Shown here: positions 3,214 through 47,586 of the stretch, one piece after another
Layout of the letters: every line of letters begins with the position of its first letter
Position numbering within the stretch: the stretch's first letter is position 1
Assembly: GCA_947628755.1 (NCBI GenBank)
Contig: CANRBC010000005.1
Coordinates: 53,009 to 117,008, forward strand
Length of the DNA: 64,000 bases
From: an uncultured Clostridia bacterium
GTDB taxonomy: Bacteria > Bacillota > Clostridia > Lachnospirales > CAG-274
Direction of reading: 5' to 3'
Notes under the pieces: model-generated
The model's input: the letters and a program-made list of their open reading frames with translations, nothing else
Told to the model about the DNA's origin: nothing
Database searches by the model: none
Position numbers and translations under genes: made by a program

Positions 3214-3233
3214 GACATACTGGTTTACATAAA

Positions 3234-3523
3234 AAAAGCCGAGCAATCTCGGCTTTTCAGCGTGTCGATAAAATCGACACGCTTGAAAGAAATGCTTATT
3301 GGCATTTCTTTCAGTTATCTAAGGAAGGAACCAGCCGTGTTTTCCGCAATTTAGGCATAAATGCCTAAATTACAGAAAAGTTCCTGTCCTCGGAGGAAGT
3401 AAATTCCTCCTGCGGATTAAAGTCTGCGACGCTTTTTTGCAAGCTGTTCTTTATTTTAATTCGTATTTTCTGCCATAATATTGTTTTTTCGACAGTCTGA
3501 AAAGCCGAGCAATCTCGGCTTTT
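3234..3523 (+). repeat. Structured ~242-bp repeated element (3258-3499) flanked by 24-bp duplicated terminator hairpins (3234-3257 and 3500-3523); copy 1
   Basis: Highly similar to 47111-47403; termini CAG..TGTCGA / TCGACA..CTG imperfect inverted repeats; several internal hairpins. Confidence 0.8.
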
Positions 3524-3802
3524 TTATATGTTGTGTTTATAAAAGGTAATTTATCTCTACGGCTTCCAATTTATCCGAAAAAAAATCAACGCCTGCTGTT
3601 CCGACCGCTATTTATTAATATTTGGCAATCGTTGGCATATAAATATGAAAAAATATACGAGTTCTTGCCAAATATTGCGGAAATGTTAAGACATTTGTAA
3701 TTTTATATTTATAACTTGTCGAGTTTTATTGTTTAATTTGTATATTTAACTCCTTATTTTCTACTATATTCGCAACTGTTTTTATAAATTTTGCCCAAAA
3801 CC

Positions 3803-7683: not shown

Positions 7684-7911
7684 TTACATTTTGTATCCGG
7701 GCTTTATATAGAGGTTTTTATTATCCTCCTTAAGCTCCTTATCGTACACCTGTTCTTTCCAGTTTTCCTCGGGTATGTCCTCAATGGCAACGGATATGGC
7801 GGAACGGTCTATACCGCCCTTCTCGCTTAATGCGTCTGCCAGAATATCGGCAATATCCTTTTTGGTTTCCTCTGTTCTACCCTTATACATTTTTACAACT
7901 ATATGCGGCAT
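7684..7911 (-). CDS. 4-oxalocrotonate tautomerase-family protein
   Basis: 75 aa, Pro2 start (MPHIVVKMYKGRTEETKKDIADIL..AL). Confidence 0.85.
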   Translation of the reverse strand: MPHIVVKMYKGRTEETKKDIADILADALSEKGGIDRSAISVAIEDIPEENWKEQVYDKELKEDNKNLYIKPGYKM

Positions 7912-7928
7912 ATATTTCCCTCCTTATC

Positions 7929-8735
7929 CTAAGCGTATTGTACCTCATAAGTACCGTCTGTGTCAAATATTATATTTACCTTGTCCCCTTTGTTGAAGGA
8001 ATTATTTTCAATACTGAACCTTCTTGTACCGCCGCTTAGCTGCACCGTTATGGAGCTGTCGCTGCTGTCTGTCACCTCGACGCCGTTGTACACAGCCATG
8101 CCCTCGTTATACGCCTTTACGGCAACTATGGTATTATCGCGCAGTATAGCGGAAATATTTCTGTTTTTATACTCTGTGTTGTCTGCCCTGTCCGAATAGG
8201 TAAGTCCTATGCTCGTAAGCATATAATCATCGCCCAAGGCTCTGTTCTCGTCTTTTGTGGCGTATACGCTTATATTTTCAGTTCGCAGCTTTGACGTATC
8301 CATAGAGCGCTCAAAGGCAGCCGTCCACACGCTGTATGGAATGGGCTTGTCCTTATCCCTTTCGTCATACTGTAATTTCAGCTTGTCGTTTCCCTTTATT
8401 TTGTTTATGAGAAACTGAGCCTGCCGCAGAGTAAGATACTCCTCCGGCTCAAAGTGGTTTTCGTCCGTGCCTGCAATAAGTCCGGCTGTAAATGCGGCGT
8501 TTATGTATTTGTCGTACCATTTGTCTATGGAGGTATCCTCAAATGTGATTTTCCTGTCCATAGCGTTTATGTCCTCGGACGAATACTTGCTCAGAGCCGC
8601 CATGGCGCAAGCCTCTGCTCTTGTCACAGGCTCGTTTTCGCCAATAACGCCTGCTCTGCTGTCCGTATTTTTGCTTGGAGAGCTACAGCCTGTAATAAAA
8701 GCAAGCAATAAAATAAATAAAGTCCTTTTCAGCAT
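7929..8735 (-). CDS. SLH-domain-containing lipoprotein
   Basis: Lipobox LAFITGCSS; SLH-like EPVTRAEACAMAALSKY.., AAFTAGLIAGTDENHFEPEEYLTLRQAQFLI. Confidence 0.8.
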   Translation of the reverse strand: MLKRTLFILLLAFITGCSSPSKNTDSRAGVIGENEPVTRAEACAMAALSKYSSEDINAMDRKITFEDTSIDKWYDKYINAAFTAGLIAGTDENHFEPEEYLTLRQAQFLINKIKGNDKLKLQYDERDKDKPIPYSVWTAAFERSMDTSKLRTENISVYATKDENRALGDDYMLTSIGLTYSDRADNTEYKNRNISAILRDNTIVAVKAYNEGMAVYNGVEVTDSSDSSITVQLSGGTRRFSIENNSFNKGDKVNIIFDTDGTYEVQYA

Positions 8736-14149: not shown

Positions 14150-16576
14150 TTATTCTACGCTGTATATCGCCGTCTTTGTATCGGCATCCCAGTCTACCTT
14201 TACTCCAAGAGCCTTGCCTAATGCTCTGAATGGTATGAACATTCTGCCGTCCTTTATTTCAGCCTTAACACCGTTTTCCATAACTGTCGGTGTGTTTCCT
14301 ATGTACATCAATTCGCTTCCTGCTGTGAATTTAATAACCTTTCCTCCCGCTGTTATGGATGCAGTTTTTGTATTTGCGTCCCAGTCCACAATAGAACTGC
14401 TGTCTGCATTTTCAATATCACCACCGCTTATGGCTATTGCCGCAAAACGAAGCGGAACAAGGGTTGAATTGGATTCGGGCTGTATGTAGGGAGTAACGTC
14501 CATAGCATATATTTTGTTTCCTACCGTAAAAAGATTATTTCCTATAATTACCCTTACAACATTTGATATAACATCAACATTTCCTGTTTTCTGCGTTATT
14601 TCTTCTTTTTCTTTTTCAATATCTATATTGTCTACAGCTTTCCAGCCTGCATACAACGTAAATGATTTTGTGACCTTGCTCTTAAAATCATAAAGTTTTG
14701 TACAAGCATTATCCGTGTACCAACCTGTAAATTCATATCCCTTTTTAATAGGTTCGGAAGGTTTTGTAAGTTTACTGTTCGATATTACCTTTTTACTGTC
14801 TACGGCATTTCCGCCATTAGAATCAAAGTTGATTATATAATAGGTTGTGGAAGAACCACCGCCTCCGCCACCTCCACCACCGCCGGAAGAACCGCCCGAT
14901 GAACTTCCGCCGCTTGAAGAACCGCCGCCTGATGTACTTCCACCACTTGAAGAACCGCTTCCGGAAGTTGACAAGTCAAACAGATTAACAGTATAATTTA
15001 TGCTTGTGTCATTCCCATTTTTATCCTTTAAGCCTGTTACTTCAACATCAAATTTTCCATTAAGTTCATTATCTGAAATATTTCTGGAACCAATATTAAA
15101 TATTATACATCTTGTACTGCCATAATTAGTAAAGTTCGCATCTTTGTAATTAAAATATTTTTCTGACATAGATGGAGTTGACGTATGATCCTTATTTGAT
15201 ATATTCCAAACTTTTCCATTGGATACTTTTGTTATCTTAATATTAACATCATCTACTGAAGCAACATTATATAGATTTTTATTTAATGAAATTGACCACG
15301 GGGTATTGTTATTGATTATATTTTTAGGAAAATTTCCTTGAACCGGATAGGCTATATAATCATAAAAATTCATATCTTCATTACTATCATCAAAAGATAT
15401 AACATTTGAATAATCTCCGTCAAAACCATTTACATACCCAAAAGCAGTATATAACATTTCAGGATTAAGCAACCACCTTCTGTGTCCTAAAGAACTCATA
15501 TTATATATATCATCGTCTTTTATCCACATATCAACAAATTCTTTTAAATTATTGACACTATAAGAAGTCCATGCAATATTGCTTGTGATTGTTGCTTGGT
15601 ATCCAAGCTCATAAAAATCTTGTTCCATGTCCTGTGGTTTTGATGGAGTATGTGAAAGGTTACTTAATGCAGCCATTAATACAGCGCCATGCTGAGCTAA
15701 ATCTATTTTACTTTCATCAAGCGAAACTTCATTCAGCCCTTCAACGTATCTTATAAAATTCAAATAATCCAAGCCGGTACTGACAAATTCACTGCTTAGT
15801 TTTCCTGTACTATATGGTGCAGATATTTGTGGTAACTCTATGAATTTATTAGAAACACTATTAAAATTTAATTTATTGTATTTATCTTTTATTTCGCTTT
15901 CGGTAGGCAATGCCTTTATCCATTTTGCAAACAAAATTCTGTTGTACTCTGGTGCAGCTGTGGTATCTGTATATTCATCAGACCACAGTTCATCAAGATA
16001 CCAGCCACCAAATGTACAGCCGTCTTTGGTGATATTTTTAGGTAAGATAGTTGTTGCTCCCGGTTCTACATAAACAGGTTCAACAGCACTTCCTCCATTA
16101 CTGTCAAATGTCAGCTTAATAAGTTCATTCCACTTAGCATATAATCTTAAATTTGAATCAACTATATCATCTGATGTAAATTGTTTTTCAAATGTATAGC
16201 AATCCCTAAACCAACCTTTGAATGCGTAACCTTCTTTCACAGGAACAGGCAATTCACCAATTTTGCTCCCACCAACTACAGTAATACTCTCTACATCAGA
16301 ACCACCGTTACTGTCAAATCTTACAGTATAAGTTGTAGTTGTTTCGGTTGAAGTTTCTGTCGTGGTTTCTGTAGTTGTTTCAGTAGAGGTTGTAGTAGTC
16401 GTTTCACTTGATGATTCTGTATTTTCTTCTACAGAACTATCCGATAAAACTTTATCCGGTATTTCTATTTCCGTATTGCTATTATCAATACTTTTATTTT
16501 CTGCATACCCTATATTTACCGCCGTAATTATTAGAACCAAAGACAGCAAAAAACTTACATATCTTTTTATACCCAT
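14150..16576 (-). CDS. Surface protein: InlB/Listeria-Bacteroides repeats, CAP (SCP-like) domain, Gly/Ser linker, stalk domain
   Basis: TYTVRFDSNGGSDVESITV...GYAFKGWFRD repeats; CAP-like region (LDYLNFIRYVEGLNEVSLDESKIDLAQHGAVLMA...GHRRWLLNP); SGGSSGGGGGGGGGGSS; C-terminal LVPLRFAAIAISGG.. / MFIPFRALGKALGVKVDWD. Confidence 0.85.
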   Translation of the reverse strand: MGIKRYVSFLLSLVLIITAVNIGYAENKSIDNSNTEIEIPDKVLSDSSVEENTESSSETTTTTSTETTTETTTETSTETTTTYTVRFDSNGGSDVESITVVGGSKIGELPVPVKEGYAFKGWFRDCYTFEKQFTSDDIVDSNLRLYAKWNELIKLTFDSNGGSAVEPVYVEPGATTILPKNITKDGCTFGGWYLDELWSDEYTDTTAAPEYNRILFAKWIKALPTESEIKDKYNKLNFNSVSNKFIELPQISAPYSTGKLSSEFVSTGLDYLNFIRYVEGLNEVSLDESKIDLAQHGAVLMAALSNLSHTPSKPQDMEQDFYELGYQATITSNIAWTSYSVNNLKEFVDMWIKDDDIYNMSSLGHRRWLLNPEMLYTAFGYVNGFDGDYSNVISFDDSNEDMNFYDYIAYPVQGNFPKNIINNNTPWSISLNKNLYNVASVDDVNIKITKVSNGKVWNISNKDHTSTPSMSEKYFNYKDANFTNYGSTRCIIFNIGSRNISDNELNGKFDVEVTGLKDKNGNDTSINYTVNLFDLSTSGSGSSSGGSTSGGGSSSGGSSSGGSSGGGGGGGGGGSSTTYYIINFDSNGGNAVDSKKVISNSKLTKPSEPIKKGYEFTGWYTDNACTKLYDFKSKVTKSFTLYAGWKAVDNIDIEKEKEEITQKTGNVDVISNVVRVIIGNNLFTVGNKIYAMDVTPYIQPESNSTLVPLRFAAIAISGGDIENADSSSIVDWDANTKTASITAGGKVIKFTAGSELMYIGNTPTVMENGVKAEIKDGRMFIPFRALGKALGVKVDWDADTKTAIYSVE

Positions 16577-16589
16577 TCAATATATCCCC

Positions 16590-18251
16590 CTATCCTTTAA
16601 TAGTTATAGTCTTACTTTCGCCGTCCCAATTTACCTCTGCGCCAAGGCTTTCGCCTACGAATCTCAAAGGCACCATAGTATTGCCGTTTATCAGTTTAGC
16701 GGGAACTGCAAGGGAAATATCTTTGCCGTTTACGGTTGCCGTTTCTTTGTTGAGTGTAAGAGAAATAGTTGTATCACTCTTTACAGATGTAACGGTCTGC
16801 GTTGCTCCGTCCCATTCAACAGAGGCACCCATAGCTTCAAATATAGCCCTCATAGGAACAAGCGTTGTGCCCTTTTCAATAACGGGTGACTGAGCAAAGT
16901 TCAGCTTATTATCGTTCAAAATAACCTTTATATCATCATTATTAGTTTTTGCCGGTGTATTATTTGATGTTGTCGCTGATGTCACCTCTATTTTTGAAAA
17001 ATCCCAGTTATTAATTCCGGTCATATCTGTTACAGCGTATGTTTTAACGGGATTTAAGAGTATCTTTTCTGCAAGTTCTTTGTATTTAGGTATATTTCTT
17101 TCTTCTATAATATCGTTTTCTACCAATTCGTCAGTATCCGCTGACTGAGCCCACTGAGCAGAATCACTTGGAATTACATCTCCATTTAAAAAAGGGTTAA
17201 ATAAATCCAAAATTGGAATCCAACTATCTTGTGTTATATTATCCGAATCATTATTAATAAACAATATTTCAGGAGAATACATACCATATTCTACATAATA
17301 ACGCTTTACAATATCTTTGTTTTCTGATTTATAGTTTGTAGCTTCCTCCACCAATATTAAATTATTGCGATTTCCACATTGAACAGTATAATATTTTATA
17401 TTATCCGGCTGCTGTGAATCTTTAAAAGAGAATGTGCCATTATATGTATTTATTTTAGGTGCATCATTATAATACGCCTTACAATAGGTGGTTACATATT
17501 TATTATCGCGTTTTTTATCTTCTTCTATAAGCGCAGAATTATTTTTATTTACAATTCCTTTCTCATCAGTATTGACTATGTATAATTCAGGAACATTATC
17601 ATTATTTGCATCAAATAGAAAATATCTGCACAAAGGATATTCTTTCAATTTATTTATATATTCTGTTTTAATATCTACATCTATTGAAGTGATCTTATTA
17701 TTCATATATTCATTGTCTTTTTTTATATTATCCATAATTTTTTCAATAATCTCATCTTCAATATCAATTCTTTCAATATTTTCTTTATATTCTATGTTGT
17801 ATTTTGTTTTTTCTTTAGAATATCCTAAATCATTGTATAGGCTATCCATAAAACCCGAATAGTCAATTATTTTATCTAAACATTTATCTGCCCCCGATCC
17901 TTTTTCTAAATAATATTTTGTCGGAGCTTCTTTAAGGTCATTTATCGTTTCTACATTTCCCGGTATATATATCTCCGTATTACTAAGCTTATCTTTATCT
18001 TCTTCCTTAAGCCTAAGCCAGTCATATCTAAGTTCCTTAACCTGAATACCGCAAATACTATTGGGAATTCTTATAACATATTTACCATTTTCTTCTTTTG
18101 CAATTTTTTCAAAATCTCCATAAAATATAATTCCATCATCTGATATACTCCAACCACTGGAGCCATTGTACTGATATGTCCTTGCATGAACATACAGAAC
18201 ACTGTTGAGAATAAATAAAATACCTAATAAGATTGCTAAAGTTTTTTTCAT
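16590..18251 (-). CDS. Secreted protein with C-terminal copper-amine-oxidase-N-like stalk domain
   Basis: ATG at 18251 after AAGGAGG (the provided ORF begins upstream at 18305); TTLVPMRAIFEAMGASVEWDGATQTV / TMVPLRFVGESLGAEVNWDGESKTITI. Confidence 0.85.
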   Translation of the reverse strand: MKKTLAILLGILFILNSVLYVHARTYQYNGSSGWSISDDGIIFYGDFEKIAKEENGKYVIRIPNSICGIQVKELRYDWLRLKEEDKDKLSNTEIYIPGNVETINDLKEAPTKYYLEKGSGADKCLDKIIDYSGFMDSLYNDLGYSKEKTKYNIEYKENIERIDIEDEIIEKIMDNIKKDNEYMNNKITSIDVDIKTEYINKLKEYPLCRYFLFDANNDNVPELYIVNTDEKGIVNKNNSALIEEDKKRDNKYVTTYCKAYYNDAPKINTYNGTFSFKDSQQPDNIKYYTVQCGNRNNLILVEEATNYKSENKDIVKRYYVEYGMYSPEILFINNDSDNITQDSWIPILDLFNPFLNGDVIPSDSAQWAQSADTDELVENDIIEERNIPKYKELAEKILLNPVKTYAVTDMTGINNWDFSKIEVTSATTSNNTPAKTNNDDIKVILNDNKLNFAQSPVIEKGTTLVPMRAIFEAMGASVEWDGATQTVTSVKSDTTISLTLNKETATVNGKDISLAVPAKLINGNTMVPLRFVGESLGAEVNWDGESKTITIKG

Positions 18252-18279
18252 AAAAATTTCCTCCTTAAAATTAAAATAA

Positions 18280-19854
18280 TTATATATTTTCTGATTCCAT
18301 AACATCAGAGTTATCTGTTATTTCATCAGAATTATCTGTTGTATTATCTGTGTTTTCTTCTACATAATCAGTGTTTTCATTTATTGTATCATTATCTGCG
18401 TTATCTTCCGTATCAGTATTTGATACATCAGTATTTTCCGTATTGCTGTTTACATTGTCATTGTCTGAATTGGAATTATCATCCGTATAATTTTGATTAT
18501 TATTGTCATAATTATTTTCACTTGTGTAATCACTGTCTTTATAATAGTAATCATCATAGTAATAATCATAATGATTATCATATCTGTCCGAATGTAATTC
18601 ATAATAATCATAAGGGGCTTCATAGCCATAATCGGTTGCACATTTAGGATGTTCACTTTTATCCCATTTATGGTCTGCAGACATAGCCATATCGGATTTC
18701 AGGAAATAATCCCATTGAATAAAATCTGATGGCATTTCAACAGGATCATCAAAGGTTACATCTAAATGATAATAATTATTGTTTAACTTGACTATTACCC
18801 ATGCATGACCTCCCCAGCCATACATATCACCTGCCGTTCCGGATATATATTCATTTTCTATGCCAACCATATTAAGTAACGCCATAGTTGCCTTTGCATA
18901 ACCTTCACAAACACCTGTTCTTCTTTTAAGCACATAATATGGATCGTAATCTTCTTCGGGTATTGTATTCCTTTCAAAATTATCATTATCATAATCCGTA
19001 TTTAATACCATGTAATCATGTATAGCCAACACTTTATCAAAATCACTGTCGTTTTTATCAATTATGTTGTTGATTATTCTTTTTCTTATGTTATAATAAT
19101 CTATAAACTCATCTATGTTTGAGGCATCTACATAATCATCTTCACCGGGAAAGAGAAAGTTTATATCACATTCATCATTTATATTAAAAAATTCCTTCAA
19201 TAGTGTATAATCTTCTATAGGATCACCTTCAAATTCTACCCAATTGACCATGGGGAAGTTCATTACATCCTCAAGAACTTCAGGTTTAAATTCTTCGGTA
19301 GGTATTGTCAATTTAAAAATACTTGCAATTTCATTTATATATACAATATTTTCATCTTCTAAGTAATTTTTTATATAATCACTTTTAAAATCATCAATAT
19401 TGATTTTCTTTCTTAGATCCTTATTAATAAAAGCAGTATATGTTGTCTGATCCCATTTAACATCTGCGCCTATAGCTTCGGAAACAGCTCTTAAAGGTAT
19501 ATAAAAATGCCCGTTTATGATTTGTTGAGGTACATCAGGATAGATTCTTTCAGACGTATTTTCTGCATTATTAAAACAGCCAAAACTATTTTGCCCCGCT
19601 TGTATTTCAATATCATAATCATTTCCTGTAAAAAAGGCTGCTTTGATATTTGGTTTCCATTCTACCTCATATTTCAGTTCCTCAAAAATGCCCCTCACAG
19701 GAACAAGTGTTCTGTTGTCTTTAATTATACCCTCGGCTTCAATTTCACTATCATTTACTATAACATTTACAGTTTTATAATTTTCTGCATGTACTATTAT
19801 TGTAGTAACGACACATAAAGCAATAATTATAGCCCCGATTAACAATTTTTTCAT
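18280..19854 (-). CDS. Secreted protein: N-terminal stalk domain + transglutaminase-like domain + Asp/Asn/Thr-rich tail
   Basis: RTLVPVRGIFEELKYEVEWKP; TGVCEGYAKATMALLNMVGIENEYISG...GHAWVIVKLNNNYYHLDVTFDDP (Cys-His-Asp). Confidence 0.9.
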   Translation of the reverse strand: MKKLLIGAIIIALCVVTTIIVHAENYKTVNVIVNDSEIEAEGIIKDNRTLVPVRGIFEELKYEVEWKPNIKAAFFTGNDYDIEIQAGQNSFGCFNNAENTSERIYPDVPQQIINGHFYIPLRAVSEAIGADVKWDQTTYTAFINKDLRKKINIDDFKSDYIKNYLEDENIVYINEIASIFKLTIPTEEFKPEVLEDVMNFPMVNWVEFEGDPIEDYTLLKEFFNINDECDINFLFPGEDDYVDASNIDEFIDYYNIRKRIINNIIDKNDSDFDKVLAIHDYMVLNTDYDNDNFERNTIPEEDYDPYYVLKRRTGVCEGYAKATMALLNMVGIENEYISGTAGDMYGWGGHAWVIVKLNNNYYHLDVTFDDPVEMPSDFIQWDYFLKSDMAMSADHKWDKSEHPKCATDYGYEAPYDYYELHSDRYDNHYDYYYDDYYYKDSDYTSENNYDNNNQNYTDDNSNSDNDNVNSNTENTDVSNTDTEDNADNDTINENTDYVEENTDNTTDNSDEITDNSDVMESENI

Positions 19855-19881: not shown

Positions 19882-20445
19882 TTATAATACTACTCCTCTA
19901 TATACCTCGTCCCTATCCTCCTGAGCTATGCCCAAATACCTTTTGGTGATTGTGAAGCTGCTATGATTGTATATATTCATAAGAATGGCAGGTGGAGTGC
20001 CCTTTTTCCATGCCTGGTAGCCGAAGGTTTTTCTCAGGGAATGACAGCTTATGTCGGGAATACCCGTATCGGCGCAGGCTCTTTTAAGTATTCTGTGTAC
20101 CTGCACTCTGTCTATTGGACCGTGCTTTCTTCCCTCAAAAATATATTCGCTCTGCATACCGTTTTTAGCAAAATACGTTTTTAAAGCATCTCTTATACCC
20201 TTGTTGATATATATTGTCTGTGTTTTGCCTGTTTTCTGCTCCTTAAGTTCAATATATTTCTTGAATCTGTGATTTTTAATGTCGAACATATCCGTCCATT
20301 TCAGCTTAAGTATATCGCTTATCCTCAGAGCCGTATTCAAGCCTACTGTTACCAAAAGATAATTTCTGTATTCACCTCTTTCCAGAAAATAATTCTTTAA
20401 TTTGTTTATATCCTTTACGGATCTTAACGGTTTTGCCTCTTTCAT
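19882..20445 (-). CDS. Short tyrosine recombinase (FimB/FimE-size, catalytic domain only)
   Basis: 187 aa; catalytic R (TALRISDIL), K (EQKTGKTQ), HSLR, NH, Y (TKRYLG) all present. Confidence 0.92.
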   Translation of the reverse strand: MKEAKPLRSVKDINKLKNYFLERGEYRNYLLVTVGLNTALRISDILKLKWTDMFDIKNHRFKKYIELKEQKTGKTQTIYINKGIRDALKTYFAKNGMQSEYIFEGRKHGPIDRVQVHRILKRACADTGIPDISCHSLRKTFGYQAWKKGTPPAILMNIYNHSSFTITKRYLGIAQEDRDEVYRGVVL

Positions 20446-20464
20446 AGTATTTTAACCTCCCTTA

Positions 20465-20672
20465 TGTAACGTTTTATATAATTGTGTTACCTATGCTTTC
20501 TTTTGTATGCCCAGTATTTATCAAATTCCTCTGTAAATATTGACACATCAAATAAATTATTTTATAATAATTACATAACTTGTCATTTCATAATTTACAT
20601 AATATTTTAGCCATTTAGAAATACTATTAATATTTCGTGAATGTAACACAATTATATAATATGTTGTGTGAC
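20465..20672. promoter_or_regulatory. Candidate invertible promoter (inverton): 17-bp perfect inverted repeats 20474-20490 and 20643-20659
   Basis: TTATATAATTGTGTTAC ... GTAACACAATTATATAA bracketing a consensus promoter, adjacent to a tyrosine recombinase. Confidence 0.75.
20540..20568 (+). promoter_or_regulatory. Perfect consensus promoter TTGACA-N17-TATAAT inside the inverted repeats, pointing rightward (away from the recombinase operon)
   Basis: TTGACA 20540-20545, TATAAT 20563-20568, spacer exactly 17 nt. Confidence 0.8.
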
Positions 20673-20723
20673 AAAGTGTGACATTTATCAGATATTATAT
20701 ATATTTTTTAATTAATTGCACTA

Positions 20724-20752
20724 AAAAAGGACGCCCAAAGCGTCCTTTTTAA
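20724..20752. terminator. Terminator of leuS
   Basis: AAAAAAGGACGC-ccaaa-GCGTCCTTTTT. Confidence 0.8.
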
Positions 20753-20767
20753 ATACCCTTTAACCTA

Positions 20768-28419: not shown

Positions 28420-31400
28420 TTATATATTTCTCCTTACATATCTGAATATAAATGTCACGGCTGAAAAGCTCATGAGAAGCAGAGCAAGGAGCTTCAAGGT
28501 ATCAGTCAGTCCATAGCCGCCTGTTTCGGGAAGAGGCGTGCCTGCTATGTTCTTAATTTCCATAGAAGCATATTCCACTCTGTTTGAGTAGTCAAGCACT
28601 CTGTACTCAGGCTCTTCCTCGTCCGTGTAATATCCGTCGGGCGGCTTAAGCTCCTTAAGCAAATACCTATCATAGCCAAGCACATCCTTGCATAAAATTC
28701 TTCCCGTATTATCTGTAATATCTATTCTTGAAAGATAATAGGTCGTATCTACACCACTATCGCTATGCACTATTGTCCTGACATAATCCGGCTCAAAGCC
28801 ACTCTCCCTGATTACATCATCCGAAAGAAGCTCCTTTACGTCGGGAGAATACAATCCGAATACTGCTCCCTCCAATACCTTTTCGCCTGTTTCATCGGTC
28901 TTTATAAGTCCATAACCCCAATTTTCCCTTGAATTCATATATCTGATATTGATATTTGATGCAGGATTATATGTAAATGAAGTATTGCGCTGAGTTATTG
29001 TTCTGCTGCCTACAACAGTTGAATTGTAGCTATATGTTTTACTGCTTTCCTCTGTAAGCTCTACAATACTGTAGGACTGAGTTATCATATTTCCCTTTGC
29101 ATCAAAATCAAAGCTCCAATTCCAAGGAGTATCGGTTTGTTCAATAACTCCCTCTGTATTAATATGCCATTGATAAAGTGAATTGAGGTCAACAGCTTCC
29201 GATACACCGCTGCCGGCAGGTACATTCAGAGTGACCTTTGTAAATGCCCTGCTATCAGCTGTCAATGCAGCAGCAATCGTATCTTGTGTATAATCGCTGA
29301 AGCTCATAGCTTCACCTAAATATATAATATAGCTGAAGGTCGTATCCTCCGAAGCGGTTATCTCTTTTCTGTCCTTATTTACAAGGGTCTTCGTAAGCTC
29401 CGGCACAGTAGGTATGCTTACGCCTACCTTAAGGGGAGTTGCAAAAAGCTGCTCCATTGTAGTTGCATCAATGGAATCGGGATTGTGTCTTTCATACCTA
29501 TAGCCAAAGGTATTCCATGCGGTTTCACCCGGCTTTGCTTTTTCATCAGCTATAGCCTTATATTTAAATGTAATAACTGCACCCGGCGGTATTTTTTCAG
29601 TAATCACAAGCCTTACTGACCTTATTGTATTCAATCCCTCTTCACTCAGACCTTCCCTGTAGTCCTTCCAATCTGAATTGCCATCAGGCTGCCAGTCCGA
29701 TTCTCCAAAGGTCGTCTTTGTGCTGTATTGTATAACAGGAGTAATTTCCATTTCAGTTCCGTCTTGTAGTTTTACAACACAACTGAAGCCTGGGTCTTTA
29801 TATAGGCTCAAAAGAAATTCGCTGCCTCTTGAAATACTTTCCGAAATTGTATTGGCGTCACCTATTTCGGGAAGATTGCTTATAAGCACAAGCCAGTTCA
29901 TATACAAATCCTCGGAATTGTTTACCGTAAGGGTATATTCCACAGGTTCATTCTTGTCCTTTATAACTATCTTGTTTTTGCTTTCACTGCCTTTTGCATG
30001 GTTGTTTTGCCCTTTGCAGTCATCGATTTCCATTTCCGATGAGGTCGGTGAGGAAATATCGGAGCTTATATAGTCTATTGCTCTTACACCTGCATTAGCA
30101 CCGCTTTCCCGTATATTTTCGCCATTGATTACAGCTCCCTCGTCATAAGACGCATTTGGTTTTAACACAGCTGTATTGTATATGGCAGGGTCGGAATTGT
30201 ATACACCCGTAGCGTTGTTTGACTGAACGGTCATTTCTACATAGCCGTTCGGAGCTATTGCCCAGCCCTCTCCTTTTGGAAAATCAATGGTAAGTGTCAT
30301 ACTATCCACGTTTTTCTTAAGGGCAACGCTGGCAGGCCGTTCAAGAGCGTTCTGATTATAACCGTATTTAATATCAAAATAGCCTTCCTTTGGCGTTCCC
30401 TTTTCAATATCCTCTGCATTAAATACTAAATCATCTTTTCTGTTTGTTGTAAGAGTAACAGATATATTGTCTTTGCCTATATTTTGCCAATCACCAAATT
30501 TAAGCAGATAATTATTATTCATCCATGAAAGTCTGCCATCTTCATAGCTGTCTTTCGTTCTGGCTTGAAAATCTCTGCTGTAGCTGTTATAGGTAACATT
30601 GCCTTTGAAATACTGAGGAAATTCCAAAGTGTCCGTAAAGGTATAACCGTCCATCATGCCTGTTCCGTCATTGTATTCCTTTACAGTCCATGTAACGGTA
30701 TTACCCTTTGTAACACTATGCCCCGTATCTACGGTTGAGCCTGTGGAGGTCACCTTTTTCTCAATGCCCGGCACAATATCGTTTCCACGATATACCGTTA
30801 CATCGGAGGCTATCCACATGGATTCGTTATTTCCTGATGTAAAGCCATGATTTCTTGCCTCGCTGTTGTCCCATAGGTATCTTTCACCGTCGTTATTTGG
30901 CGTCATCTTATTAAACGTACTTATGTTTACTGCAGTATCATTGTCAACGGCTATTTCCATTCCGCTGTTGTAAAGCTCCATAGCCGCGGCATTTACCGCC
31001 GTATCCTCGCTGTCGTATTCCGGTCCTGTAAGACATTCATAGCCAAACTGTACATAATACCCCGGCTCAAGATAAAATTTATCCTTCATGGCATCATATC
31101 CAAAGCCTGTACATGGAGTACCCTTATCGCATTCTATATCGAAGCCCATTATAACATGTCCGTTTCTGCTTTCAACACGTTTTGCCTTTACCATAGGATA
31201 ATCTCCGTTAAGTCCTATCTTTGAACCCGGTGCGGCAACTGCAAGCTCCGGTCTTGAGCTATCATGTACCATTACATTATCTTTAATATTTTCAACGCAG
31301 CCTACACCTGCCCATGAATTATAATAATCTCCAGGATTTATATCCGGATTGTTTCTCAGTGAAAAGAATGTAAAGCCCTTGGGCAGCTGGTCATATATGG

Positions 31401-34400
31401 TAGACAAATACAGCCTTGTGGTACTGCTGCTGTTCTTTATTATTGTATAATAGGCGACCATACCTCTGCTGAGAGTTGTGCCTGCCGCCTCAATATCATT
31501 CTGATAGGTAAAACGGTCCTGTCCTCTGTAATAAGTTTTAACGCTGGGCTTTGGTACTGCTGCGCTGTAATCAATATTGGCATTATACATAGTATATCTG
31601 CCTGTTTCGTATACGCCCTTCTGCAAAAATGCAAGTCCCGGGTCTGAAAGCTCGTGGCTTACTGACTTAGGATACTCCCACGCTTCAAGAGTGTTTGTAA
31701 GATAGTCTGTGCCATGAGCAGCCATATATTCCTGCCATTGTTCAGGCGTATCTCCCGGAAAATCAAGAGTCACATATATATAGAGAGAAGCGCTTGTATC
31801 TGGGAATTCAGCGCTGAAGGTGTTCTTCCATCTCATATACTGCTGTTTTATATCGGGAGTTGTGCCTGTAACATCATCTCTTGAATCAATATAGATTTCC
31901 CTACCGTCACTTACAGTATTTGGAGAAATTTCGGAGCTGCCGTTTTTTATATTTATATTTGCTCCGTTTGTACAGTATTCAATGGAAATATTGTCTGCAT
32001 ACCTCCATTCAAAGAAACCGTCGTTATATGGAAGAATGTCGAAAAAGTCGCTGCCTCTTAATATTTGCGGAGCATTGTCGACCTCATTTTTGAATTCAAG
32101 TCTGTATGTGACCTTTCGTGTATCCCTTGTTATCCTTGAAAAATCATCACTGTCAAGTATATCAAGAGCCGGTCTGCTGCCCTTCTCCGTAACTATTTTC
32201 TTGTCAAATTTAAGTGCAAAGGAATATCCGCCCTTGAAGTCGTAAAGCCTGTGGCTTGGTCTGTCACCCATCCAGCCTCTGTTGAATACCTTGCGCTTCA
32301 TAGAGCTTTCATTGCACTTCAAAAACTCAATATCGGAATATACCTTGTAATTTATTTCACATGTAAAGTTTGCGCCTAAGAAATCCTTTATATACCACTT
32401 GGCAGTTGTAGCGATTTCACCGTTGTCAAGTCTTTCAACGGTAATTCTGTCAGCATAGTAATCGCCAAACATAACGCCTCGGAATTCCCTTTTGCTTCCA
32501 ACCGCTTCATCAGGCATAAGCACATAATAATCCTTGTTGTCAGACTTGTTTGTGTAAACCTTAAGACCGGAAGTCCATTCTGCGCCCCTATTGTCCTCTA
32601 CAGGCGCAAGAAAAGCTGATACGCCTTCCATATAATCCGTTACGGGGATAACATCATCATATCCGCTGTCATTGTTATGGAAAATGACTATATCATAATC
32701 CCATACGGTATCATTGTTAAACTCATAGTCGTTTCCCATCTGATCTGTTTTTCCGTCTATTGTACCTGCCTTCTGGAGGGTTATTTCGGGTCTGAGCTTA
32801 ATACTGCCAAGATTGGAGGATATTCCTGCGTTCTTTATAACACCGCTGTCCTCTTTGCAGGCTGAAACACTATTATTATCGGCGTGCTCTATAAATACAT
32901 CGTTTATGGTATTTCCTGCCGAGCTGGAGGTATCCTCTGTACTGCCGTAATATTCGTCTCTGTCGTCTACAAGAAGCATAAATGTATTCTTAAAGCTGGA
33001 ATAAATATTAAATTCCTTAGAGCTGCCTGCGTCAAGACCCTCCGTATAATACCGCACCGTATATGTACACGGCTCTGTCACTACAAATCCAAGGGCATCA
33101 AGGGCTTCGTCTATTGAAGAATAATCTTTGTCCTTACCTATTGTATAGCTATTATTTACGTCTCCGTAAACAATATTTATATTGTAAATATCAGCATTTT
33201 CAGCATCCTGTGATATTGTTATAACAGCTTTGTCTGTAACACGGTCCGTATCGCTGTAGGAACGACTTATATAATCTCCGCCGTCTCCTGAATACTGTAC
33301 GTCAAGCGTATCTGTAGTTCTGCCGTCTACAAGTACGACGCTTTCATTATGCCTGCTGTCTGATATAAAGGCATTTTTGATTATAAATTCGTAGCGGTTT
33401 TCCTCATCACTTGCCTCTTTAAACATTTTCTCCATATCAGAGGGTCTTATATAATGATATTTATTCAGATTATCCTCAAAATAACTAAGCTCTCCACAAT
33501 TAAATGCTGAGTTGTTTTCGGCAGTTATTCTGAATATATCATCATCGCCGAAGTTCATAAACTTATCTCCGCTTGGGTCCTTTACATCATACTCATTTAC
33601 TCTTATTTTCTTAAGAGTAATATCGCCCTGTACAGAAGATAATGCTATATCGTGCTTAACGGTATATTCCTCCGGTGACCATGACTCTGCATAATAATAG
33701 TTTTCATTACAGTCTACCTTGTTTATGGCATCCTTAAGCACTACATTTGCTGCCGTATCGGGATTATCTTTTTTATAGCTTTCCTCGTCAAAAATGAGGA
33801 CTTTAGGGCCAAATATAACGTCTATGGAAGGATTGCCCATTTCAGAGCCGTTGTACGTATTATTTTTATTGAATATTTCCCATTTCAGAGTAATTGTATT
33901 ATCCTCATTGATTTCAAAATCCACACCGCCTGCTACAGATACATTGCCATTATTGAGCTTTACTCTTACAAGCTCATATTCCTCCTCGTCAATGGTAACA
34001 TATATAACATAAACGCCGCCGCCTTCACTTACAAATTCACATCTGTAATTTCCGTTTTTCTTTGCTTCCTTTATCCCTTCTCTCCAGCTTATATATGTAG
34101 GAAGCGTAAATGTGTCCTCTATATCTATGGAATTTACATAATCGCTGGCCAGACTGCGGTTAGCTCCAATCTGCGCTCCGCCGTGTTCCTCATCCTTTCC
34201 CCAAAATACCCAATAGCCTAAATTAGCCAGAGTTTTTTTGCCATCGGGAGAAAGCATCATTTTCACTTTATCTGCGGAATTATAAATTTTTTCTATAGGA
34301 TAGTGGTACTCTATGGTATTCCATACAGTTTTATGGTATTCTCCGTTTGTAAAAATTCCCTCTTCAGACAAATCATCCGTAGGCAGTATGACCTTGCCGT

Positions 34401-37400
34401 CATATCCTGCAAAGCTGTCATTGTTTCCGCCTACTCCCCATACATATAAGGTACTGTTGTCGGGCTTTCCGTTGGGATATGAAAAATCCAAGCTGATAGG
34501 AATTGTCTGTCCGCTGGGAACAGGACCTATCTCATAATAGTGATAATCTGTATTTTCCACCTTATGATAGGTAACAGGCACATTGTTGGATTCGCTTATA
34601 TTGTCTGTAAATAAACAGTCTTTACTGCACCTGAAGTAAAGTCTCAGCATACGGTTTTGTCCGTCTTGCGAAACATTAATTCTTATTTTATTCTGTTCTC
34701 CCGTAAGAAGCTCCTCTTTATCAGAAAATATCTCATAAAGTCCTTCATATATTTTTATAGGAGTTCTTCCGTCTACTCTTGTACCGAAAAATTCCTCTTC
34801 CTCCATATCCTCGGAAGGAGCGCCTTCAAGACCTGTATTATAGAAGGTAACACTTACTGCGCCCTTGTCCTTAAATATTTCAAGAGCCGCTTCAACAGTT
34901 GTGCAATCCTGAACGCTTTTCAAAGACATACACTCTGCAAAGGCATGAAGTGATACAGAAGTAATGCTTTCAATATTTTCAAATGTAACAGAGCTGACTT
35001 TTGACATGCTCAAGGCATAATCGTCAACAGCTGTGACATTATAACTGTTGTCTTCGCCTACTGCTTCGGGGATTTCAAAGCTCCCGCTTCTGTTTTCACA
35101 GGCATATACAAGCATAGCCGTTTTATCATCATTGAGCTTATACAAATCGCCTTCTGCCGAAACAAAGTATTTTCCCGCTTCTATGGTATCCAAAGGCGCA
35201 GGAAGTCCTGTAGAAGCAGTATCGCCTGTTATTTCGAGTTCATTTTCTCCTTCAAACACAAGCCTGCCTATATGCTTCTGTCCTGCCGCAAAAATATCCG
35301 ATGTAATGCTCTTACTGTCCTTGCCTATTGCCATTGTAAAATTAGTATTTACATTTGTAAATATATCTCTTGTGACAGTTTTGAGATTTGTGGAATTTAC
35401 ATAGAAGTATGAAAGCGACGGCATATTGCTAAAGGCAAAATCTCTTATCTCCTCAACCGTTGGCGGAAGTATTACCTTACTCAGAGTTGAACAGCTGTCA
35501 AAGGCTCTGTTTTTTATTGTCTTTAAATATCTGAGCTTTGAAAAATCCAAGCTCTTAAGAGCCGTCTTTGAAAAGGCATAGCCTTCTATAGTTGTAAGTA
35601 CACTGTCTTCGGGTATTATCAGCTGACTGAGTCTCTTGCAGTTTTCAAAAGCATTTCCTGTTATTGTTCCCAGAGATACAGGAAATGCAACGCTTTCAAG
35701 TCCGGAATTGTTAAAGGCTCTGTTGCTTAATTTTCCCAGACTGGGAAGCCTTGTAAGGTCTACAGACTTAAGGCTTTCCGTATTCATAAGTGACCAATCG
35801 CCTAATTCCCATACAAAATTCTTTTCTATGACGCCGTTAAAATCAATTTCGCTAAGAGATGTGCAGCCATAGAACATAGCGCCGCCATTTGAGCTAAAGT
35901 TATATCTTTCGGGCATAATTACTCTCTTAAGACTTGTACAGCCCTTAAATGTGCCTACGGCAACATTGTTGTTATTATTGCCTGTATATCCTTGAAATAA
36001 TACGCTATAGGAGCTTATTGCTGAAAAATCGATTTCCTCAAGAGAGGTACAATTCTGGAAAATACCTATGCCCATCTGATTCAAAGTGCCGCTTCCAAGC
36101 CTGAAGCTCTTAAGCTCCTTACAGCCATAAAAGGCAAAATCACCTATATAGGTACTTATTCCATTCACAATATTCACATCTCTGAGAGCCGTATTGTAAA
36201 AAGCGCCTCCCGATGCCATATCTTCTACATTTCCTGTCCTTGTGGCATATCCTATCGAATTTATTTTTATATTCTCAAAATTTATTTTTGAAAGCCTTAC
36301 ACAATTACTAAAGGCTGCTCCCTCTATAGTTACGGGATAGATCATATTTTCAGGTGTATCGAAGACCACTTCTTCAAGAGATGTGCAGTATTCAAAGGCT
36401 CTTTCCCTTATAATCATCATACCCGGCGCGTCTACATCGAAAATAACCTTCTTAAGACGACTTTCATTGCCTGCAAACTCTCCCTGCTCCATTACCTTTG
36501 TAGGAATAGTCGCAGGTCCCATATTTGTAATATGCACAGTAAGGGTATAGGACAAGTCATGATTAAGAGTAAGCTCATAGTTAGCGCTGTTTATCACCTG
36601 CTCTATGCTGAGAGGCATAATATCACAGGAAAGACAGCCGCTGTCATGTCTGTGCTCTAAATATCCGCACACAAGCTCTCCGTTTTCGTTATAGCAGCCT
36701 GTACTGTGAGTATGCTCCTCAAGACCGCATATAAATTTATCCTGTCCGTCCGTTTCTATACTGTCAGTAGTAGTTTCCGTATATTCCTCTACATAATCCT
36801 CGCTGTGAGTTTCAACCGTTGTATCGGCATCTGCTCCGCCGCCGGATATAATTTCATCGGGCACAGTTATTCCATTGTCAGGCTCGTCGGGATACTGTTC
36901 ACTGTACTTCGGCTGGTCATAATCAGCTTCACTATCATCCGTGGGGTTGCTTACAGAGCTTGATGACACAACCGTATCGGGTATAAAGAAGCCTGCGTCC
37001 TTATCAGTGGTTTCCTCGGCTTCGGCTTCTGTTGCCTCGGTTATCTCCATTTCTGTTTCGGTGATTTCCTCGGTCTCAGTTTCTGTTTCCTCATCTACGA
37101 CAACCTCTATATCACTCTCATAACATTCCTCTGTATGAGTATGCTCCTCAAGACCGCATATAAGCTCCTCACTTGTTTCATAACATTCCTCGGTGTGGGT
37201 ATGCTCGTCATTTTCCTCAAGTCCGCATACAAGAGCCGTGTTATAGGTATAGCACTCTTCGCTATGGGTATGCTCCTCCAAGCCGCATATAGTTTTTCTT
37301 TCCATTGTGATGCCCGGAAGTATAAGTATATATGTAGTTATAAACACAACAATAACGCCCATTACAGACAAAAGCCTATATCTGAGCTTATTTCTTTTCT

Positions 37401-37443
37401 GCTGTGATATAAAATTTGACGCACGCTTTAACAGATCATTCAC
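28420..37443 (-). CDS. Giant LPXTG-type surface adhesin 1 (Cys/His HTHxxECY repeats, BspA-like leucine-rich repeats, DUF11/isopeptide-type and SpaA-like domains, LPETG sorting signal)
   Basis: N-term TM/signal; five CG(L)EEHTH..ECY-like units; SpaA-like GLYSPDVKELL...LLKELKPPDGYY; C-term LPETGGYGLTDTLKLLALLLMSFSAVTFIFRYVRRNI. GTG start at 37443 (cognate to gene 2 ATG) preferred over the ORF start at 37530. Confidence 0.9.
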   Translation of the reverse strand: MNDLLKRASNFISQQKRNKLRYRLLSVMGVIVVFITTYILILPGITMERKTICGLEEHTHSEECYTYNTALVCGLEENDEHTHTEECYETSEELICGLEEHTHTEECYESDIEVVVDEETETETEEITETEMEITEATEAEAEETTDKDAGFFIPDTVVSSSSVSNPTDDSEADYDQPKYSEQYPDEPDNGITVPDEIISGGGADADTTVETHSEDYVEEYTETTTDSIETDGQDKFICGLEEHTHSTGCYNENGELVCGYLEHRHDSGCLSCDIMPLSIEQVINSANYELTLNHDLSYTLTVHITNMGPATIPTKVMEQGEFAGNESRLKKVIFDVDAPGMMIIRERAFEYCTSLEEVVFDTPENMIYPVTIEGAAFSNCVRLSKINFENIKINSIGYATRTGNVEDMASGGAFYNTALRDVNIVNGISTYIGDFAFYGCKELKSFRLGSGTLNQMGIGIFQNCTSLEEIDFSAISSYSVLFQGYTGNNNNNVAVGTFKGCTSLKRVIMPERYNFSSNGGAMFYGCTSLSEIDFNGVIEKNFVWELGDWSLMNTESLKSVDLTRLPSLGKLSNRAFNNSGLESVAFPVSLGTITGNAFENCKRLSQLIIPEDSVLTTIEGYAFSKTALKSLDFSKLRYLKTIKNRAFDSCSTLSKVILPPTVEEIRDFAFSNMPSLSYFYVNSTNLKTVTRDIFTNVNTNFTMAIGKDSKSITSDIFAAGQKHIGRLVFEGENELEITGDTASTGLPAPLDTIEAGKYFVSAEGDLYKLNDDKTAMLVYACENRSGSFEIPEAVGEDNSYNVTAVDDYALSMSKVSSVTFENIESITSVSLHAFAECMSLKSVQDCTTVEAALEIFKDKGAVSVTFYNTGLEGAPSEDMEEEEFFGTRVDGRTPIKIYEGLYEIFSDKEELLTGEQNKIRINVSQDGQNRMLRLYFRCSKDCLFTDNISESNNVPVTYHKVENTDYHYYEIGPVPSGQTIPISLDFSYPNGKPDNSTLYVWGVGGNNDSFAGYDGKVILPTDDLSEEGIFTNGEYHKTVWNTIEYHYPIEKIYNSADKVKMMLSPDGKKTLANLGYWVFWGKDEEHGGAQIGANRSLASDYVNSIDIEDTFTLPTYISWREGIKEAKKNGNYRCEFVSEGGGVYVIYVTIDEEEYELVRVKLNNGNVSVAGGVDFEINEDNTITLKWEIFNKNNTYNGSEMGNPSIDVIFGPKVLIFDEESYKKDNPDTAANVVLKDAINKVDCNENYYYAESWSPEEYTVKHDIALSSVQGDITLKKIRVNEYDVKDPSGDKFMNFGDDDIFRITAENNSAFNCGELSYFEDNLNKYHYIRPSDMEKMFKEASDEENRYEFIIKNAFISDSRHNESVVLVDGRTTDTLDVQYSGDGGDYISRSYSDTDRVTDKAVITISQDAENADIYNINIVYGDVNNSYTIGKDKDYSSIDEALDALGFVVTEPCTYTVRYYTEGLDAGSSKEFNIYSSFKNTFMLLVDDRDEYYGSTEDTSSSAGNTINDVFIEHADNNSVSACKEDSGVIKNAGISSNLGSIKLRPEITLQKAGTIDGKTDQMGNDYEFNNDTVWDYDIVIFHNNDSGYDDVIPVTDYMEGVSAFLAPVEDNRGAEWTSGLKVYTNKSDNKDYYVLMPDEAVGSKREFRGVMFGDYYADRITVERLDNGEIATTAKWYIKDFLGANFTCEINYKVYSDIEFLKCNESSMKRKVFNRGWMGDRPSHRLYDFKGGYSFALKFDKKIVTEKGSRPALDILDSDDFSRITRDTRKVTYRLEFKNEVDNAPQILRGSDFFDILPYNDGFFEWRYADNISIEYCTNGANINIKNGSSEISPNTVSDGREIYIDSRDDVTGTTPDIKQQYMRWKNTFSAEFPDTSASLYIYVTLDFPGDTPEQWQEYMAAHGTDYLTNTLEAWEYPKSVSHELSDPGLAFLQKGVYETGRYTMYNANIDYSAAVPKPSVKTYYRGQDRFTYQNDIEAAGTTLSRGMVAYYTIIKNSSSTTRLYLSTIYDQLPKGFTFFSLRNNPDINPGDYYNSWAGVGCVENIKDNVMVHDSSRPELAVAAPGSKIGLNGDYPMVKAKRVESRNGHVIMGFDIECDKGTPCTGFGYDAMKDKFYLEPGYYVQFGYECLTGPEYDSEDTAVNAAAMELYNSGMEIAVDNDTAVNISTFNKMTPNNDGERYLWDNSEARNHGFTSGNNESMWIASDVTVYRGNDIVPGIEKKVTSTGSTVDTGHSVTKGNTVTWTVKEYNDGTGMMDGYTFTDTLEFPQYFKGNVTYNSYSRDFQARTKDSYEDGRLSWMNNNYLLKFGDWQNIGKDNISVTLTTNRKDDLVFNAEDIEKGTPKEGYFDIKYGYNQNALERPASVALKKNVDSMTLTIDFPKGEGWAIAPNGYVEMTVQSNNATGVYNSDPAIYNTAVLKPNASYDEGAVINGENIRESGANAGVRAIDYISSDISSPTSSEMEIDDCKGQNNHAKGSESKNKIVIKDKNEPVEYTLTVNNSEDLYMNWLVLISNLPEIGDANTISESISRGSEFLLSLYKDPGFSCVVKLQDGTEMEITPVIQYSTKTTFGESDWQPDGNSDWKDYREGLSEEGLNTIRSVRLVITEKIPPGAVITFKYKAIADEKAKPGETAWNTFGYRYERHNPDSIDATTMEQLFATPLKVGVSIPTVPELTKTLVNKDRKEITASEDTTFSYIIYLGEAMSFSDYTQDTIAAALTADSRAFTKVTLNVPAGSGVSEAVDLNSLYQWHINTEGVIEQTDTPWNWSFDFDAKGNMITQSYSIVELTEESSKTYSYNSTVVGSRTITQRNTSFTYNPASNINIRYMNSRENWGYGLIKTDETGEKVLEGAVFGLYSPDVKELLSDDVIRESGFEPDYVRTIVHSDSGVDTTYYLSRIDITDNTGRILCKDVLGYDRYLLKELKPPDGYYTDEEEPEYRVLDYSNRVEYASMEIKNIAGTPLPETGGYGLTDTLKLLALLLMSFSAVTFIFRYVRRNI

Positions 37444-38084
37444 TGCGCTTCCCCCTTCTTGCGCTTCTATCCGATATAAAATCTGCAACAGCCGTAATGG
37501 GTATGAGATACCCAAATCCTCCTGTTCCAAAAAATTTTATTTTGTTTTGCTTATACTTTTCTTATCTTCATGCTGCTAAAATTTTTGTAAACTCGATAAT
37601 TCTATTTCCGCCCAAAGCTTCCTGTTCATTTTTGTTTGAGAATTTTAACATTTTTAATAGTTTATACATATTTTAGCACAAATTACATAATTATTCAAGA
37701 CTTTTGGCATAATTTTTTTACAAAAACCACTAATTATTAATATTCCCTTTCTAATTTGTTGTTATAATTAACAAAAAATTCACTTAAAGCCTTTTATTTA
37801 TTGAAAAATACAGCATTGACATGTCGGCGGATATTTCTCCCTTGAGGTTCATAAATACAATAATATGTATTTATCTTTATAATTATGTACTCAAGGGTTT
37901 ATTGATTGTCCTTTTATAAAAAAACCGACAGGCAGACATTCATACAAGAATACATACCTATCGGTTATATTAAGAAAGACTGTCCCCATTGTGAGGGATA
38001 GGGCTCTGCAAGAGAAGAGGCATTTAAAATGCGACAGTCTGTCTTACAATATTTTGAATAGTCCATATAGGGACAAAATACAGT

Positions 38085-46994: not shown

Positions 46995-47110
46995 TGCGCT
47001 ATCCTCCGCTTTATATACCTAAAAGAACAATATCAAGCCAAAACATTCATTATATATAGAGTATCTGAACCGTTTTATTTCTATTTGTCGTTTTCTGTGT
47101 TTCTGTAAAA

Positions 47111-47403
47111 AATCGGAAAAGTGGACTTTTCCGATTCAGCGTGTCGATAAAATCGACACGCTTGAAAGAAATGCTTTTTGGCATTTCTTTCAGTTAACTA
47201 AGGTAGGAACCAGCCGTGTTTACTGATATTTTGGCAAGTATGCAAAATATCAGTAAAGTTCCTGTCCTCGGAGGAAGTGAATTCCTCCTGCGGATTAAAG
47301 TCTGCGACGCTTTTTTGCAAACTGTTCTTTGTTTTAATTAATATTTATTGTCAAAGTATTGTTTTTTTGACAGCCTGAATCGGAAAAGTAAACTTTTCCG
47401 ATT
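47111..47403 (+). repeat. Structured ~241-bp repeated element (47137-47377) flanked by 26-bp duplicated terminator hairpins (47111-47136, 47378-47403); copy 2
   Basis: Matches 3258-3499; flank hairpin AATCGGAAAAGT..ACTTTTCCGATT differs from copy 1 flank. Confidence 0.8.
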
Positions 47404-47586
47404 TTATTAAATTACATATATTTTATCATAAATATTATAATTATTCAAGTTTTTTAGCATAATTTTTCAGTAAAATTATTAATCGGAAAAATCCATTTTT
47501 TCGATTTTTCGTTATATTTAACAAAAATAATCTCAAATATATTCAATTTATTGATAAATACAGCAGACAACACAAATTGAATATAA

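Follow-up and report, generated by a model that had tools for sequence, protein, structure and literature searches.

Can a promoter that points away from a neighbouring tyrosine recombinase gene be turned around by that recombinase, and is the recombinase gene then itself among the genes that are switched? The question is raised by a short intergenic segment in the window, i.e. the whole stretch of 64,000 nucleotides that was analysed, which derives from an uncultured Clostridia bacterium. The organization of the locus and its comparison with related genomes point to an invertible-promoter phase switch with the recombinase as first gene of the operon that it switches, a reading to which we assign a probability of about 0.85. 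An invertible-promoter switch is of a known kind; what appears to be new is the position of the invertase inside the operon that it switches.

The invertible segment, its recombinase and the operon

The core of the locus is a perfect 17-bp inverted repeat, with a proximal arm (TTATATAATTGTGTTAC, 20474-20490, plus strand) and a distal arm (GTAACACAATTATATAA, 20643-20659, minus strand), that encloses a segment of 152 bp (20491-20642) which is found inverted in relatives. Extension of the pair to 20468 and 20665 gives 23 bp at 91%. The segment carries a promoter of exact consensus, TTGACA-N17-TATAAT, on the plus strand (20540-20568; -35 hexamer at 20540-20545, -10 hexamer at 20563-20568, spacer of 17 nt), which points away from the recombinase, an orientation that is referred to as OFF. 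The perfect repeat, its 152-bp interior and the exact promoter had been described in an initial annotation of this DNA, and we recovered them at the same coordinates. In 3000 approximately dinucleotide-preserving shuffles of the region 20446-20760, a perfect inverted repeat of at least 17 bp appeared in 0.03% and a perfect promoter in 0.3% of the cases, and none of the 3000 combined a perfect promoter with an inverted repeat of at least 14 bp. Chance as the origin of the repeat is ruled out by these shuffles together with the recurrence of the arrangement across loci (see below). The whole window holds only two perfect promoters with a spacing of 16-18, and the one in the segment is the sole good consensus match near the recombinase. 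With respect to structured RNA, no Rfam family was found in the window.

Downstream of the promoter as it is presently oriented lies a putative bidirectional leuS terminator, recognized by its inverted repeat (AAAAAGGACGC-CCAAA-GCGTCCTTTTT, 20724-20750), which separates the switch from the upstream leuS. It would end the OFF-state transcript, for which a length of 183 nt without a long reading frame is predicted, and it would insulate the operon from leuS. In-silico inversion of the segment moves the -35 hexamer to 20593-20588 and the -10 hexamer to 20570-20565 on the minus strand, where the promoter faces the recombinase as had been foreseen in the initial annotation; the -10 hexamer then ends 120 nt upstream of the recombinase ATG instead of the approximately 115 nt proposed, and a leader of about 113 nt would result. 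Similarly, the distance between the left repeat and the start codon had been put at some 20 nt and is in fact 29 nt.

The repeat arms had been viewed as partial dyads, but the paralogues support a better reading, in which the core site consists of a 9-bp half-site, a 7-bp spacer and a second 9-bp half-site (e.g. TTAACACAA-TTACATA-TTCTGTTAA in L003), so that the proximal repeat represents the inner half-site and spacer of a recombination site. The inner half-site and the spacer match between the arms of one locus and differ between loci (the inner half-site variants being GTAACACAA, TTAACACAA, CTACACAA, GTGACACAA and GCGACTTAA), as one would expect of modules that each retain their own sites. 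Immediately beyond the distal repeat there is an accessory direct repeat, GTGACA...GTGACA, with a period of 10 bp (20668-20683, copies at 20668 and 20678). Direct repeats of this type (TGTCRC-N4-6-TGTCAY) are found outside the distal site in 12 of the 28 family loci introduced below and beside the proximal repeat in none of the 28. One idea is that they form a fixed accessory site that gives direction.

The first gene of the operon (19882-20445, minus strand) encodes a tyrosine recombinase of 187 aa that comprises the catalytic domain only and is, judged from its sequence and position, the likely invertase of the switch. Its ribosome-binding site (AAGGGAGG, 20456-20463, minus strand) lies outside the invertible segment, in the stretch that separates the ATG from the proximal repeat. 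The protein was said to possess all catalytic residues, and this was borne out by a match to the Pfam family Phage_integrase (PF00589, E = 1.4e-26) and by the invariance of R41, K71, H135, R138, H161 and Y170 in 13 relatives. These residues and the fold place it within the tyrosine recombinases: the predicted structure (mean pLDDT 84) matches XerA (5hxy, 6e-9), the Tn1549 integrase, XerH and lambda integrase. The best curated models are those of XerA and XerC/D, followed at lower scores by FimB/FimE, and all of them remain below their cut-offs. The XerA-like model (NF040815) gives 82.5 bits against a cut-off of 220, with the 263-aa model matched at 100-263 only. The FimB/FimE models (NCBIfam PRK09870 and PRK09871) give 33.0 and 33.1 bits against cut-offs of 221 and 222, so that the initial designation FimS-like is appropriate for the working mode of the locus and not for the family membership of its recombinase. 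The N-terminal core-binding domain is absent, as it also is in FimB-type invertases.

The operon consists of four nearly abutting genes on the minus strand and ends at 14150. The recombinase gene is followed by three genes for proteins that are probably secreted, as called by eye from their signal-like N-termini. The first (18280-19854) has copper amine oxidase N and transglutaminase domains, the second (16590-18305) a copper amine oxidase N domain, and the third (14150-16576), which is the last before a convergent gene, List_Bact repeats combined with CAP and copper amine oxidase N domains. The gap of 28 nt between the recombinase and the first of these genes contains a ribosome-binding site of its own and no terminator, and no other conserved promoter was found for the recombinase or the surface genes. 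Outside the switched operon, the window also encodes a surface protein of 3036 aa with an LPETG sorting signal at its end (28420-37530).

Recurrence and orientation in related genomes

The layout of the switch recurs in two paralogues within the host genome and in ten more cases in four congeneric genomes. At the level of the family, a search of 48 genomes yielded 41 matches in 19 genomes, and we counted 28 family loci that have the repeat together with a promoter deviating from consensus at no more than one position, including one (L010) whose imperfect repeat, with one half-site mismatch, was judged by eye. The promoter is exact at all 12 positions in 26 of these loci and its spacer measures 17 nt in all 28, and the segment is strongly divergent between loci except for the promoter and the repeats. 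In the host's family, recombinases of the subfamily almost always come with a switch of their own immediately before the start codon. The three more distant recombinases of the host genome (L004-L006) have no comparable repeat and promoter. In the host genome the exact 14-bp site occurs only in the recombinase modules and in copies at contig ends, and elsewhere a single site with one mismatch is present. A genus-wide search for orphan switches, with a pattern that had a fixed gap of 100-130, returned 0 matches; as its spacing was ill chosen and it missed the known loci as well, this result carries no weight. Two complete modules of switch, recombinase and cargo succeed one another at L155:362-4827, both with repeats of their own and an OFF promoter, and EF-Tu comes next.

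Two matters on which the initial annotation had pointed to related genomes, the conservation of the repeats and the orientation of the promoter, are answered by this comparison. Relatives with the recombinase have retained the repeats as well, and of the 28 loci 25 have the promoter directed away from the recombinase (OFF) and three towards it (ON; L029/L154, L034/L162 and L041/L145). In the host's own genus all 13 loci are OFF. The excess of OFF over ON has a p-value of 3e-5 under equal odds, in a test that ignores shared ancestry and is weakened by it.

The clearest evidence for inversion comes from orthologous loci. The flanks of L152 and L154, from two species, align directly (8097-8716 to 255-875 at 88% and 7873-7946 to 30-103 at 80%), whereas the segment at 7927-8119 aligns in reverse to 272-79 with 87% identity; between the repeats the identity is 85.2% in the inverted versus 48.6% in the direct comparison, the latter being equal to background. 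Likewise, the segment is inverted between the colinear flanks of L155 and L162, which are syntenic with EF-Tu downstream, with an identity of 71%. In addition, L145 matches L148 and L149 over 61 bp in inverted orientation. These alignments indicate that the segment was inverted in the course of evolution between orthologous loci, in species other than that of the window, and the two orthologous inversions between colinear flanks lend support to the original proposal that inversion of the promoter acts as an ON/OFF switch. The locus thus has the attributes of an inverton: inverted repeats paired around a short intergenic segment, a promoter that according to its consensus match can drive the neighbouring operon in one orientation only, and both orientations, as observed between related species.

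Predicted self-limiting expression and competing explanations

In the proposed mechanism, the 187-aa recombinase would bind both inverted sites and invert the 152-bp segment. In the orientation of the window (OFF) the promoter would fire into the leuS terminator, whereas after inversion (ON) a single transcript, starting with the leader described above, would encode the recombinase and the three secreted proteins. The ON state would be self-limiting because the recombinase that is made in it flips the segment and so tends to restore the OFF orientation; ON would be transient and OFF would accumulate. Catalysis by the 187-aa recombinase, transcription, the self-extinguishing dynamics and the route to ON are the elements of this scheme that we infer. 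The 25:3 excess of OFF loci fits a self-extinguishing ON state, and could instead result from selection or shared ancestry.

In the OFF state the recombinase has no conserved promoter, and the step from OFF to ON therefore needs another source. The return could proceed via leaky expression or via a related recombinase acting in trans, and the candidate sources are leakage, a weak promoter seen in the window only and paralogues with near-identical sites. The weak promoter matches the consensus at 10 of 12 positions and faces the recombinase in the OFF orientation of the window, and therefore OFF may be leaky. A conserved weak OFF-state promoter was rejected as a route back to ON, as the single 10/12 match in the window is absent from the paralogues.

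The need for another source of recombinase in the OFF state also bears on the foremost alternative, which holds that the segment is invertible but is flipped chiefly by a paralogue or some other recombinase in trans, the local one being mainly a passenger or acting elsewhere. The host paralogues at C45 and C2 have almost the same half-sites, several further copies of the C45-type switch lie at contig ends, and RecV of Clostridioides difficile acts on several distant switches (PMC5903667). However, a switch adjoins nearly every subfamily recombinase in the host's family, and the sites vary by module and yet match within a module, which suggests local pairing. We consider this alternative unlikely, albeit one to be reckoned with.

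It is considerably harder to maintain that switch and recombinase together form a small mobile element, with the repeats as its recombination sites and inversion as a by-product of a transposition-like activity. The block of terminator, switch and recombinase is evidently moved or copied as one piece: it is duplicated alone in G003 (95.6% over 804 bp), and the homologue of the window's block, L137 (86% over 809 bp), occupies another genomic site, with an upstream gene other than leuS, and its similarity stops at the recombinase stop codon. Moreover, the C45-type block has at least six partial copies in the host genome, several of them at contig ends that break within the switch, so that the assembly has collapsed a module that exists in multiple copies. 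The recombinase, however, is not enclosed by the repeats, which are both situated upstream of it, the block ends showed neither terminal repeats nor target duplications, and several loci are syntenic between species, adjoining a HAD-phosphatase gene or tRNA genes, which makes this explanation very improbable. Least probable of all is the absence of a switch in the host species, with the outward promoter making a short noncoding RNA up to the terminator and the repeats serving as binding sites or being relics: the predominance of outward promoters in the family and the genus, the T-rich terminator-like stem that is present just past the distal repeat at many loci and the predicted 183-nt transcript would agree with it, but the three ON loci and the X-shaped inversion between orthologues speak against it, as do the lack of a long reading frame in the RNA and the divergence of the segment outside promoter and repeats.

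One may tentatively suggest that the cassettes of about 800 bp, each with a terminator, a promoter that can flip and a recombinase, act as mobile pulse switches that limit themselves, and that they have spread between sites and genomes and have come to precede different surface or polysaccharide operons. Among the genes that follow the recombinase are some for BspA-type leucine-rich repeat proteins, lectin/cohesin/dockerin proteins, copper-amine-oxidase-N proteins and small XRE-like regulators (L129, L131 and L139), as well as polysaccharide-synthesis operons (L143, L144 and L151, according to their translations). At several loci there is no same-strand cargo downstream of the recombinase. A stem-loop with compensatory changes in the stem and an invariant loop around TTTTCATGTTC was observed right after the recombinase stop codon in L003, L010, L012, L009 and L016, and may act as a terminator or attenuator ahead of the cargo. 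Given the cargo-less loci or this putative terminator, the recombinase may in some cases be the only gene under the switch.

Several other repetitive elements were encountered. Beyond C45 itself, copies of the C45-type switch end are present in contigs C21 (end), C24, C25, C40, C17 and C49 of G000, several of them exactly at a contig end. Short palindromic intergenic repeats of the ATCGACCCTTCCACC type, abundant in the genus, occur at L002:1-228 and at about 70 places in G000, and often flank C45-type modules. The window itself contains MITE-like elements of about 290 bp (3232-3525 and 47109-47405), which have nested terminal inverted repeats and share an inner hairpin (TGAAAGAAATGC/GCATTTCTTTCA).

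Relation to known phase switches

Among the phase switches with which we compared the locus, expression of the recombinase comes from outside the switch, whereas more than two dozen loci here place the invertase first under the promoter that it flips. The fimS system of E. coli type 1 fimbriae with FimB and FimE has in common with the locus a short promoter segment between inverted repeats, its inversion by a small tyrosine recombinase and the control of surface proteins. Transcription of fimB and fimE starts outside the fimS switch, whereas the recombinase described here comes first in the operon that the flipped promoter would drive. The Hin/hix system of Salmonella resembles the locus in that the recombinase gene and the promoter switch form one compact unit; Hin is a serine recombinase whose expression is not switched by the inversion. 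The hin gene differs in being inside the inverted segment (PMC5903667). As to the bias of fim, ON cells make more FimE, which biases back to OFF (PMC2784873; PMC9993118), and this arises via a longer and more stable fimE mRNA in ON cells (PMC2784873). The similar bias of fim is thus reached by a route other than the recombinase-in-operon design proposed here.

In the ipuS-ipuA system of uropathogenic E. coli, a tyrosine recombinase gene is found directly beside a 260-bp invertible promoter of a surface-protein operon (PMC6083910). There, however, the promoter drives ipuR-upaE away from ipuA, and ipuA, whose 3' end overlaps the element, is not the gene that is switched (PMC6083910). The RecV switches of C. 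difficile (cwpV and flagellar) are similar in having a clostridial XerC/D-type tyrosine recombinase and short intergenic invertible segments ahead of surface-gene operons, but RecV serves several sites that are not adjacent to recV, and in cwpV the flip affects a terminator and not a promoter (PMC2784873, PMC5903667). Inverton group 139 with invertase group 35 of gut Clostridia shares the adjacency of a tyrosine-type recombinase and an inverton, mostly in the class Clostridia (PMC11892184); compared by description, it differs in that the nearby invertases are enriched in a non-regulatable position (PMC11892184). The same survey of gut invertons reports nearby invertases to be generally 'non-regulatable', i.e. 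not placed under the inverton promoter; the one possible exception concerns a group in which restriction specificity subunits are abundant (PMC11892184). No precedent for an invertible-promoter operon that begins with the gene of its own invertase was found in the open-access literature. With the invertase under the promoter that it flips, a switch of two states would become a device with negative feedback, for which a bias to OFF is predicted, and it becomes a testable question whether the coupling of an invertase to its own switch produces brief ON pulses of surface proteins. Being small, recurrent in uncultured gut Clostridia and different in their sites, the cassettes could supply orthogonal flip switches for the laboratory.

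Among wider relatives (Lachnospiraceae and others, L053-L127), most recombinases have no upstream repeat, and about nine have repeats matching at 17-20 of 20 positions at the same place, mostly with ATGTAACA-like half-sites and with no consensus promoter. In other families of the order (L177-L202), recombinases of the same subfamily are preceded by repeats of 17-24 bp that have TTGTGTTACAT-like half-sites and are located at roughly -190 to -44. The segment between them contains no promoter and has a terminator stem (GCGAAGATGAA..TTCATCTTCGC) whose T-run is on the strand directed away from the recombinase, in a single orientation throughout the loci seen. The related recombinases in these families may have a terminator that can flip where the others have a promoter, an arrangement that resembles the terminator logic proposed for cwpV (PMC2784873).
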